Below are positions 19,487 to 55,844 of a stretch of DNA of 64,000 nucleotides, one piece after another. Numbering within the stretch: position 1 is the stretch's first letter; each line of letters begins with the position of its first letter. The notes under the pieces were generated by a model. That model was not told where the DNA came from, did not search any database, and worked only from the letters and a program-made list of their open reading frames with translations. The translations under genes and the position numbers were made by a program. Source of the DNA: Candidatus Peribacter sp. (lineage in GTDB: Bacteria; Patescibacteriota; Gracilibacteria; Peribacterales; Peribacteraceae); NCBI GenBank assembly GCA_030647195.1, contig JAUSKD010000030.1, positions 1-64,000 of the forward strand, written 5' to 3'.

Positions 19487-19515
19487 GGGGCCATCGACGT
19501 CATGTCGATGGCCCC
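19487..19515. terminator. Perfect 12-bp stem-loop after the 18567 CDS
   Basis: GGGGCCATCGAC-GTCAT-GTCGATGGCCCC. Confidence 0.5.
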
Positions 19516-28558: not shown

Positions 28559-29188
28559 GTGTCTCCGTCCGTTGCCATCATCGATTACGGCGTCGGAAAC
28601 CTCACTTCGGTTGCCAATGCCGTCTCGCGTCTGCAGGTGGAGGTGCGGATTTCGGCCGATCCACTGGAGCTCAAAAATGCCACGCACATCATCCTGCCGG
28701 GCGTGGGGAGTTTCGGCGAGGGCATGAAGGGACTTGCGGAACGCGGATTTATTCCCGCACTGCAGGAGGAGGTGAGGACGAAGAAGAAGCCGTTGCTCGG
28801 CATTTGTCTCGGGATGCAGTTGCTGGCGACGGAGGGATTCGAGCACGGCCATCATCAGGGACTTGGATTCATTCCCGGGTCCGTGCGCATGATCGATACG
28901 ACTCAATCGGGTCTGCGGCTTCCGCACATCGGATGGAACGATGTTGCCGTCTCGGACCGCCATCCAATCGCCCGCGGGTTCACCCACATGCCGATCTTCT
29001 ACTTCGTACACAGTTTCCATCTCGTACCCGAACAGGCGGATGTCATCGCGGGTACATGCGAGTATGGGGAGCGGATTGTGGCGCTCGTGCAGTCTGCGAA
29101 TGTGTGCGGGGCGCAGTTTCATCCTGAGAAGAGCCATGATGACGGACTCAGGATTTTCCAGAATTTCCTCGCACTTTCCTCATGCTGA
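28559..29188 (+). CDS. hisH: Glutamine amidotransferase subunit HisH-like (copy 1)
   Basis: VAIIDYGVGNLTSV ... LLGICLGMQLLA ... GAQFHPEKSHDDGLRIFQNF; in-frame GTG at 28559 used as start. Confidence 0.9.
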   Translation: MSPSVAIIDYGVGNLTSVANAVSRLQVEVRISADPLELKNATHIILPGVGSFGEGMKGLAERGFIPALQEEVRTKKKPLLGICLGMQLLATEGFEHGHHQGLGFIPGSVRMIDTTQSGLRLPHIGWNDVAVSDRHPIARGFTHMPIFYFVHSFHLVPEQADVIAGTCEYGERIVALVQSANVCGAQFHPEKSHDDGLRIFQNFLALSSC

Positions 29189-33606: not shown

Positions 33607-34887
33607 TCACGCAACGGTGTACTTGAGCTTCCAGTCCCCGCCGGTTTTTTCCCACAGGCTGGGATCGCGGTAAGAGTCCACGGTCTCCCAGAATTTCTTT
33701 TCATCAAGATCGATGTATTGCAAAAAGTCCTTGAAGTAGCGGTGGGGAAACTCCCCCCGGAACCGGTTCACCAGTGCCACTCCCTCTTCCCGCGTGATCT
33801 CCCTGTTTCGGATTTCCTGCGCGGCATCTTGCGTCGCCCGTCCATAACCGAATTTGATGAGTGTCGTGTAGTAGAAGAAGTCGTCCGTGCGGTCATCCAG
33901 ACTGTTATATTTGCTGTAGGTGCCGGGCGTGCGTTCCGGCGCAGCTTCGAACCCGCAGTGCTTCACGGCGTAGTAATAGGTTTCCTGCGGGTGCCAGTTC
34001 AAGTAGTAGCCCAGGTAGTGGAATTCAATTTTCTTCTTTTTGATTTCATCCGGATCCGCCGGGAAGTACGGAGCCAGATCCCCTTTGGAGACGCCTTTTT
34101 CCAGGTAATCGGCGACCGAGACGCCACCGAGGTAGATCTGGTCGAGGTTTTTGCCCTGCAGAAAATCCAAGCGGAATCCTTCGCTATTCTTGTCATCGGC
34201 ATTGAACTTGTTCTGGTCGATTGCGACATTGGCGCCGTACTCTCCCGGACTCTCGCCGTAGAAGATCAGGGGGATGTTGTACTTGATGGCCATCTTCACG
34301 GCGAATGTCTTTTGTCCGAGGATGAACGGCTGGAACGGGTGGAGCAGGTGGAGGAAGGCGTTGCGCGTGAGCAGGCGGTGCGTCTTGCCGTTGGGGGTGA
34401 AGAGGTAGTTGTCGAAGCCGCCGACATGCAGCCAGTTCTGAAAATTGCGGAAACCGATGTCCGTGTACAGGTGCGGCGCCCAGGTGACGGTGAGCGGGTG
34501 CATGTCGTACTTGTACTTGAGGATGTGCGACGCGAAGCAGCTGTCCTTTCCGCCGCTGCCCGGTACGAGTATGTCATAGGAACCGTCTTTGCTCCGGTAC
34601 TTCGCAAGGAGCTCGATGAGCTCCTTTTCCCGCTCCAGCCAATCAATGGTTCCGTCATACTTCGCCGCGCAAAACCGGCAGGCGCTGCAGACACCCTGCT
34701 CATCAAAGTCGATGTACCGGTGCTTGAGACGGATGTGATGCTGATATTCGTTGCAGGAGGTCGGCCGGGTATTGGGCATGACGCACTTTTTGCAGAACTT
34801 CACCGTTGCCGGCAAGCCGTATTGTCGCTCATCCAAACCGTCTGGTGCCGGTTGCAGCGCTGCGGCGATTTTGGATTGAGAATCCAT
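33607..34887 (-). CDS. N-acetyl sugar amidotransferase, WbpG/LegX/PseA family (copy 2)
   Basis: VKFCKKCVMPNTRPTSC ... GVCSACRFCAAKYDGTIDWLEREKELIELLAKYRSKDGSYDILVPGSGGKDSCFASHILKYKYDMHPLTVTWAP. Confidence 0.92.
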   Translation of the reverse strand: MDSQSKIAAALQPAPDGLDERQYGLPATVKFCKKCVMPNTRPTSCNEYQHHIRLKHRYIDFDEQGVCSACRFCAAKYDGTIDWLEREKELIELLAKYRSKDGSYDILVPGSGGKDSCFASHILKYKYDMHPLTVTWAPHLYTDIGFRNFQNWLHVGGFDNYLFTPNGKTHRLLTRNAFLHLLHPFQPFILGQKTFAVKMAIKYNIPLIFYGESPGEYGANVAIDQNKFNADDKNSEGFRLDFLQGKNLDQIYLGGVSVADYLEKGVSKGDLAPYFPADPDEIKKKKIEFHYLGYYLNWHPQETYYYAVKHCGFEAAPERTPGTYSKYNSLDDRTDDFFYYTTLIKFGYGRATQDAAQEIRNREITREEGVALVNRFRGEFPHRYFKDFLQYIDLDEKKFWETVDSYRDPSLWEKTGGDWKLKYTVA

Positions 34888-34908: not shown

Positions 34909-35628
34909 TTACCGACGCGCGGCATTCTGCGCCAGCCGTACGAAATTATCAATGATGCGGATACCCATTTTACCGCTTTTCTCAGGGTGAAACTGGCAAC
35001 CGATAATGTTGCCCTTTCCGATTACAGAAGCGAAGGTAAACCCGCCATACATTGTTTCGGCAAGGACGTGTGCCGGATCTTTTGGTTTCAGGAAGTACGA
35101 ATGGATGAAGTACATATCCGCGCCGGCGTTCACCCCTTCGAGAACCGTTCCTTTCCATGCTTTGCCCCTCTCCTGTCCCTCTCCTGCCCCTCGACTTTGC
35201 TCGGGGCACCCTCTCCCAGGGGGAGAGGGAACAAGGAGGGCGCTTTCTATGGAATTCCAGCCCATGTGCGGCGTCTTGGCGCCGTCTTTGAGCGGCGGAA
35301 AGTGCACCACTTCTCCCGGAAGTAAGCCCAGTCCCTCCCATTCGCCGAATTCATATCCTTTTTCCAGCAGTAACTGCGCACCGAGACAAATGCCGAGAAT
35401 GGGCTTACCCTTCGCCGCCGCAGTTTTCACTTCATCCAGCAGGCCGCGGACCCGCAGCCCCTCCATGCCCGCCTCGAAGGCCCCCTGTCCCGGAAGAACG
35501 AGGGCGGCAGCATCGCGGATTTCTTTGGGATCCTCGCTCAAGCTGACATCCTGCGTGAAACGCTTGAGCGCCTTCATGGCGCTATGGATGTTCCCGATGC
35601 CGTAGTCGACGATGCAGATGCGGGCCAT
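34909..35628 (-). CDS. hisH: Glutamine amidotransferase subunit HisH-like (copy 2) with in-frame insertion
   Basis: ARICIVDYGIGNIHSAMKAL ... ILGICLGAQLLLEKGYEFGEWEGLGLLPG ... GCQFHPEKSGKMGIRIIDNF; extra about 30 aa (LLVPSPPGRGCPEQSRGAGEGQERGKAWK). Confidence 0.9.
   Translation of the reverse strand: MARICIVDYGIGNIHSAMKALKRFTQDVSLSEDPKEIRDAAALVLPGQGAFEAGMEGLRVRGLLDEVKTAAAKGKPILGICLGAQLLLEKGYEFGEWEGLGLLPGEVVHFPPLKDGAKTPHMGWNSIESALLVPSPPGRGCPEQSRGAGEGQERGKAWKGTVLEGVNAGADMYFIHSYFLKPKDPAHVLAETMYGGFTFASVIGKGNIIGCQFHPEKSGKMGIRIIDNFVRLAQNAARR
35155..35245. repeat. Palindromic repeat inserted in frame within hisH copy 2
   Basis: CCCTCTCCC-AGG-GGGAGAGGG (35209-35229) plus CCCCtCGA-N6-TCGGGG stem; region absent from hisH copy 1. 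Confidence 0.65.
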
Positions 35629-35633
35629 GTGCG

Positions 35634-36395
35634 TTACGGGTGACGGATAGGAATGCGGTGTTCTGCCATTGTCTTCTTGAGGTCCGGAATGGCGTATTCA
35701 TCGTAGTGCAGGATAGACGCCACACATACCGCGTCAGCGTGACCGTCATTCACCGCCTCGGCCAGGGACATGCCGTCTTTCGCTCCGCCGTGAATCACCA
35801 CGGGAATATCCGCAATGGCCGTCACGGCGGCGAGCAGTTCCCGGTCATACCCTTTCTTCGTCCCATCGAAGTCTACGGAGGTCAGCAAGATCTCTCCTAC
35901 ACCCATGTCGAGTGCGCGCTTGATCCACTCGATGGCATCCAGCCCCGAGTGCTCGCGTCCTCCATCGGTGTACGCCTCCCAGTGCCCGGGGCTGCTGCGC
36001 TTTGCTTCAACCGAAAGAACAATGCACTGTGCGCCGAACTGGTGCACGGCTTCGGAGAGGAGCGTGGGATTGCGGGTCGCGTAGGTGTTGATCGCGACCT
36101 TGTCCGCTCCCGCGCGCAGGAAATTATTGATGTCATGCAGTGACTGGATGCCCCCGCCCATGGTGAGCGGGATGAAGAGCTCGTTCCCGATCGAGCGCAT
36201 CAGGTCGAAGTCGGGACTGCGCTGGTAGAGCGAGGCGACGATATCCATGGCGATCAGTTCGTCCGCCCCCTGCTCGAAGTACTTGCGGGCGAGGTCCACG
36301 GGATTCCCGATGACGCGCAGCCCTTCCAGGTGGATACCCTTCACCACGTTGGGTCCTTTGATGTCGAGCCGGGGGATCAGGCGCACGCTATGCAC
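35634..36395 (-). CDS. hisF: HisF-like cyclase subunit (copy 2)
   Basis: VRLIPRLDIKGPNVVKGIHLEGLRVIGNPVDLARKYFEQGADELIAMDIVASLYQ ... PLTMGGGIQSLHDINNFLRAGADKVAINT. Confidence 0.9.
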   Translation of the reverse strand: MHSVRLIPRLDIKGPNVVKGIHLEGLRVIGNPVDLARKYFEQGADELIAMDIVASLYQRSPDFDLMRSIGNELFIPLTMGGGIQSLHDINNFLRAGADKVAINTYATRNPTLLSEAVHQFGAQCIVLSVEAKRSSPGHWEAYTDGGREHSGLDAIEWIKRALDMGVGEILLTSVDFDGTKKGYDRELLAAVTAIADIPVVIHGGAKDGMSLAEAVNDGHADAVCVASILHYDEYAIPDLKKTMAEHRIPIRHP

Positions 36396-55811: not shown

Positions 55812-55844
55812 GTCCTTTCTTTGTCATGGCGACAAAGAAAGGAC
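55812..55844. repeat. Perfect 14-bp inverted repeat at the edge of a non-coding repeat-like block (about 55800-56015)
   Basis: GTCCTTTCTTTGTC-ATGGC-GACAAAGAAAGGAC. Confidence 0.65.

Follow-up and report, generated by a model that had tools for sequence, protein, structure and literature searches.

The gene hisH2 (34909..35628, minus strand) encodes a class-I glutamine amidotransferase of the HisH family, 239 residues long, whose reading frame continues unbroken across the insertion described here. The product matches TIGR01855 with 188 bits, and the GATase profile PF00117 covers residues 6-230. Within the window, by which we mean the whole 64-kb stretch of DNA analysed, hisH2 lies on the same strand as its two neighbours, a gene for a WbuX-type N-acetyl sugar amidotransferase (33607..34887; TIGR03573, 360 bits) and one for a HisF/WbuZ-type partner (35634..36395; TIGR00735, 272 bits, and TIGR03572, 256 bits, both below the curated cut-offs). 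Because of these neighbours, hisH2 is most likely the ammonia supplier to the sugar-amidation step. The first-pass annotation had named the product a HisH amidotransferase; this is right as to family, and the protein is most likely the partner of the adjoining WbuX rather than a histidine-pathway copy. A second HisH is encoded at 28571-29182 on the plus strand. The nearest named relatives of the sequence are Candidatus Peribacteria metagenome-assembled genomes (MAGs).

Alignments of orthologs with and without the insert, together with AlphaFold2 modelling, delimit an in-frame insert, LLVPSPPGRGCPEQSRGAGEGQERGKAWK, at residues 131-159 (35152..35238, minus strand), which comprises 29 residues and 87 nt, about 65 nt of them belonging to the motif proper. 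An in-frame insertion at 35155-35245, lacking from the other HisH copy, had been proposed from the sequence alone; the insertion is real, and the HisH at 28571-29182 aligns only to the parts flanking it. Read on the coding strand, the order is CCCTCTCCC-CCT-GGGAGAGGG-TG-CCCCGAGCAAAGTCGAGGGG-CA-GGAGAGGG-ACA-GGAGAGGGG. Stem A (CCCTCTCCC, 35221..35229, all elements being on the minus strand) is separated by the 3-nt loop 1 (CCT, 35218-35220) from its perfect complement, stem B (GGGAGAGGG, 35209..35217). A 24-nt loop 2 follows, replaced by the hairpin TGCCCCGAGCAAAGTCGAGGGGCA (35185..35208), and then stem C, the presumed third strand (GGAGAGGG, 35177..35184). An additional copy of the purine block (GGAGAGGGG, 35165..35173) is found here only among the three insert-bearing species. 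The strong palindromes noticed on first reading are thus a perfect 9-bp stem, CCCTCTCCC/GGGAGAGGG, spanning 35209-35229, and a second hairpin, CCCCTCGACTTTGCTCGGGG, at 35187-35206. Folded as a single strand, the insert DNA reaches -23.2 kcal/mol, whereas shuffled sequences give -15.4 +/- 2.4 (z = -3.3), and it contains no stop codon in any of the six frames. The triplex motif occurs once in the window, in which no more than six sites have a perfect stem of at least 9 bp and a 3-8 nt loop. The window's two longest perfect hairpins, with stems of 14 and 12 bp, are at 55812-55844 and 19487-19515.

The layout of the insert, CCCTCTCCC-3 nt-GGGAGAGGG-[hairpin]-GGAGAGGG, is also that of the published E. 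coli pattern for the TMECO/PIT intrastrand triplex repeat (Holder et al., 2015, PMC4666352; earlier work by Maher and co-workers is cited there), and on this ground it is highly probable that the insert is a copy of a dispersed, G/C-rich TMECO/PIT-type triplex-motif repeat integrated into hisH2. The pattern for stems A and B, CCCTCNCCC N3-6 GGGNGAGGG, is matched by CCCTCTCCC CCT GGGAGAGGG at 35229-35209 (minus strand); the candidate for the third block, GGGNGAGGG with one mismatch allowed, is AGGAGAGGG, which fits only with that mismatch. TMECO has been reported from 262 proteobacterial genomes, and in E. coli K-12 its loop 2 is 3 nt long and 23 of 23 copies are intergenic (PMC4666352). Since loop 2 in hisH2 is not 3 nt but a 24-nt hairpin, we file this copy as a variant rather than as a strict TMECO member. 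The two elements have in common a C-rich stem, a 3-6 nt loop, a G-rich stem and apparently a second G-rich stem, GGG[T/A]GAGGG; both are dispersed in multiple copies, differ in copy number between close relatives and have no accompanying mobile-element genes that were found. Unlike TMECO in E. coli K-12, the Peribacteria copies often lie in frame within genes, as in hisH2 and about a quarter of the sampled copies, and in many of them a hairpin of variable sequence takes the place of loop 2. Rfam holds no family for the element. For TMECO itself, footprinting in living E. coli cells did not reveal a triplex (PMC4666352).

Further genomic copies of the insert had been anticipated, and they are observed directly. 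A BLAST search of the same genome with the whole 101-bp stretch gave short partial matches only, because the loops differ, and a layout pattern was needed instead. With it, a strict search returned four hairpin cores, that of hisH2 and three others; one (C38:10044) lies in frame inside a GT4 glycosyltransferase gene, while those on contigs C29 and C53 are apparently intergenic. The three-block pattern is present in 27 of 58 relatives, at up to 42 copies per genome, and the reversed pattern, used as a control, had zero matches across the same 58. A logo of the flanks of 96 copies showed conservation ending 2-3 bases beyond the motif, with no terminal inverted repeats or target-site tag. Loop 2 in these 96 copies measures 2-5 nt in 57, 14-26 nt in 33 and an intermediate length in 6, the commonest class being 3 nt (32 of 96). 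Self-complementarity of the long loops far exceeds that of shuffles (a summed stem of 153 over 28 distinct loops, versus 80 +/- 6; z = 11.5), and their hairpins have about 25 different stem sequences. Self-complementarity of loop 2 would be expected, short of proof, if the two G-rich blocks must come close, as in the putative triplex. In viral sequences, the motif was common among the matches listed.

Orthologs of hisH2 present both filled and empty sites. The insert is found in two orthologs of the same genus, L007 (87% identical) and L008 (79%), whereas a third same-genus species (L010, genome G002) has GWNSIIPPAGHTWEGT in its place, and WB-IL-18 (L043), another Peribacteraceae MAG, has GWNAINEPTSARWKGT. 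As close orthologs without it exist, the alignments indicate that the stretch is a true insertion and not a general feature of HisH. L007 and L008 have TGGCGCGAAGCGCCA as their middle hairpin, which is shorter by nine bases than the one here (loop 2 of 15 nt versus 24 nt), and the exchange of hairpins was therefore also frame-preserving. Loop 1 differs in all three insert-bearing species and the stems are unchanged, a conservation that is partly ascertained, as motif searches pick intact stems. At the same site, the hisH2 of G028 (L009) carries a different small palindrome, with codons ACCCCAGCAGCAGGTCTTCGACCTGCGGGA.

Third codon positions of hisH2 are 0.82-0.91 identical between species within the insert and 0.48-0.60 in the flanks; for G004 and G001 the figures are 20 of 22 versus 0.48 (p = 3e-5, for a region picked after being seen). 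The like conservation of perfect stems in motif-selected genes was left aside as ascertained. At the level of sequence comparison, the hisH2 pattern is the opposite of protein-level constraint, and homogenisation by recombination would yield the same likeness. Outside the insert, G001 (L008) is by identity the most distant of the genus's four hisH2 genes, and a single-gene tree of tgt likewise places G001 outside the others; for these reasons the simplest history would be one old insertion in the ancestor of the genus, later lost in G002. Exchange of the insert between species is a possible alternative to this insertion and loss.

The AlphaFold2 model of HisH2 has a mean pLDDT of 91, with most of the core above 95, and its closest solved folds are HisH enzymes. 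The insert, between strands 123-126 and 171-174, has a pLDDT of about 50 (about 47-56 for residues 131-150) and lacks regular structure save for a short helix at its end. Modelling the insert as a possible surface loop had been suggested from the outset, and in the model the HisH fold is intact and the insert forms a loop that is disordered for the most part; we therefore read the insert as tolerated repeat DNA. One could suppose instead that the protein has come to make use of the peptide, for example to tune the HisH-HisF contact, as the peptide starts about five residues past the conserved GWN motif and three species retain it. We regard this as highly improbable: the peptide varies (CPEQSRGAGEG versus WREAPGEG), G002 lacks it, and the structural model leaves it disordered.

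Insertion into genes is not peculiar to hisH2. A coding-potential scan placed 28 of 110 copies inside genes, these calls resting on homology and on codon usage in both flanks, with the third block required and an ad hoc cut-off applied to a simple coding score, in material consisting of MAGs. By group, the in-gene copies number 13 of 41 in the genus, 7 of 22 in G012, 4 of 10 in G018, 1 of 7 in G007, 0 of 27 in G024 and 3 of 3 in G029, whose stretches were chosen partly since two were already known to lie in genes. Without G029, 25 of 107 copies are in genes versus 0 of 23 in E. coli K-12 (Fisher p = 0.007; E. coli count from PMC4666352). The element still avoids genes in Peribacteria, as most of a bacterial genome is coding. 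GatB, CarB (two copies), class I LysS, PurD, a pseudouridine synthase and PcrA have HMM matches that span the insert; Tgt, TsaB, PurQ and two glycosyltransferases are further in-frame hosts. As for hisH, empty-site orthologs are observed for some TsaB, Tgt and GT4 proteins of other species. Copies fill the same TsaB loop in G004, G002, G034 and G029, and since both orientations and two phases occur there, sequence comparison suggests that this loop was probably hit more than once. In G004 (L255) and G002 (L256) the triplex motifs of this tsaB loop have their hairpins on opposite sides, which looks like the outcome of either inversion in situ or two insertions. The GT4 linker and an IGGGKDS protein likewise have copies at comparable positions in different genera.

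Further repeat-like peptides occur in these genomes. One apparently FemAB-like frame of G012 (L309) seems to contain about four repeat-derived peptides (PSPLKGRG, PSPFVKGEG, PLSLCGRRG and LTLSRGERG), and lysS of the same genome (L307) has a repeat-like peptide, VCHGERSRTMTG, in addition to the triplex motif, perhaps two repeat types in one essential gene. GT4 genes L278 and L277 (G000 and G002) carry a second kind of in-frame repeat-like peptide, FPSTSSGQANHP / YPSTSSGQVNHP, with STSSGQ, which is absent from the orthologs of G001, G003 and G004. We take the STSSGQ peptide to be typical of TTCGACAAGCTCAGG-type hairpins.

All three coding phases are used about equally (about 9, 8 and 7 distinct events), and the same DNA encodes PSPxGRG, LSRGER or PLPxGEG according to phase and orientation; what is conserved is the layout of the DNA and not the peptide. 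Copies in genes are antisense and sense in the ratio 19:8 (p about 0.05), an excess that may reflect stop codons: copies of the common TTA type have them in two of the three sense frames versus one antisense. HisH loops vary in length and the inserted peptide is disorder-prone, features that would suit a plain indel in coding sequence, or loop expansion by low-complexity sequence, with the palindrome as a by-product of Pro, Gly and Arg codons. That account is scarcely credible, the same DNA occurring in unrelated genes, in both orientations and also between genes, and recurrence of the element in other phases refutes it. Retention of the element for a role in the mRNA, where its hairpin might delay ribosomes or give the transcript protection, would accord with the strong fold of the insert, with its conserved third positions between distant species and with loop-2 hairpins whose sequence changes while pairing stays. 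It is nevertheless unlikely, as the close sister L010 does without the element, the hosts are unrelated genes entered in either orientation, and most copies elsewhere are not called inside genes.

The first-pass annotation had likened the insert to a REP-type element landed in a coding gene without breaking the frame, and a dispersed, mostly intergenic palindromic repeat with the frame kept is indeed what we find; given the other genomic copies and the empty hisH sites of orthologs, neither of the two outcomes named there as refuting came about. Kinship with the Rickettsia palindromic elements (RPE), to which it had compared the insert, is not supported. Both are palindromic in-frame insertions in unrelated metabolic genes. 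RPE, however, form families of about 150 bp that encode a conserved peptide and have CGTC at one end, whereas the Peribacteria element is about 36-65 nt long (within an 87-nt insert in hisH2), has no tag and uses three frames without preference. The GTAG/CGTC-tagged REPs (PMC3733652) are likewise short hairpins, and genes of known function contain some of them; the Peribacteria element differs in its three-block layout and in having no link to a Y1 transposase. It is very unlikely that the element belongs to RPE or to the GTAG/CGTC REP superfamily and was moved by RAYT (Y1) transposases, even though the same in-frame intragenic behaviour has been described for both (PMC3733652, PMC10969869) and 19 of 30 related genomes contain Y1_Tnp genes. 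Neither a CGTC nor a GTAG tag is present in the hisH2 insert, no conserved tag appears in the 96 copies, and the flanks are uninformative beyond 2-3 bases. The genome richest in copies (42) has no Y1 gene. A RAYT/Y1 transposase as the mover was rejected, copy number being uncorrelated with Y1 genes (rho -0.04).

Taken together, these results suggest the following course. A triplex-motif repeat would have entered hisH2, most simply in the ancestor of this genus; a copy of length 3n landing in a surface loop would be tolerated, because hairpin-type copies have few or no stops in six frames, and would give a flexible loop. The element may then persist as near-neutral selfish or replication-derived DNA. 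Whether it spreads by structure-provoked template switching or repair at the hairpin or triplex, rather than by a Y1 transposase, we put at about even chances. On balance we lean towards the view that in Peribacteria the triplex-motif repeat has time and again supplied essential proteins with in-frame loops, has struck some sites more than once, the tsaB loop among them, bears an exchangeable hairpin cassette in loop 2 and spreads without a recognised transposase. Judged against the open-access literature, the element itself is known, as are intragenic REPs of other families (PMC3733652, PMC10969869), and its intragenic behaviour and hairpin variant are new. With full, empty and hairpin-swapped ortholog sites, gain, loss and cassette exchange would be directly readable, and PSPxGRGWREAPGEG-like peptides in predicted proteins should be taken as repeat DNA and not as domains. 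If true, in-frame repeat insertion, best known from Rickettsia, would extend to a different, very widespread element and to candidate-phyla bacteria.
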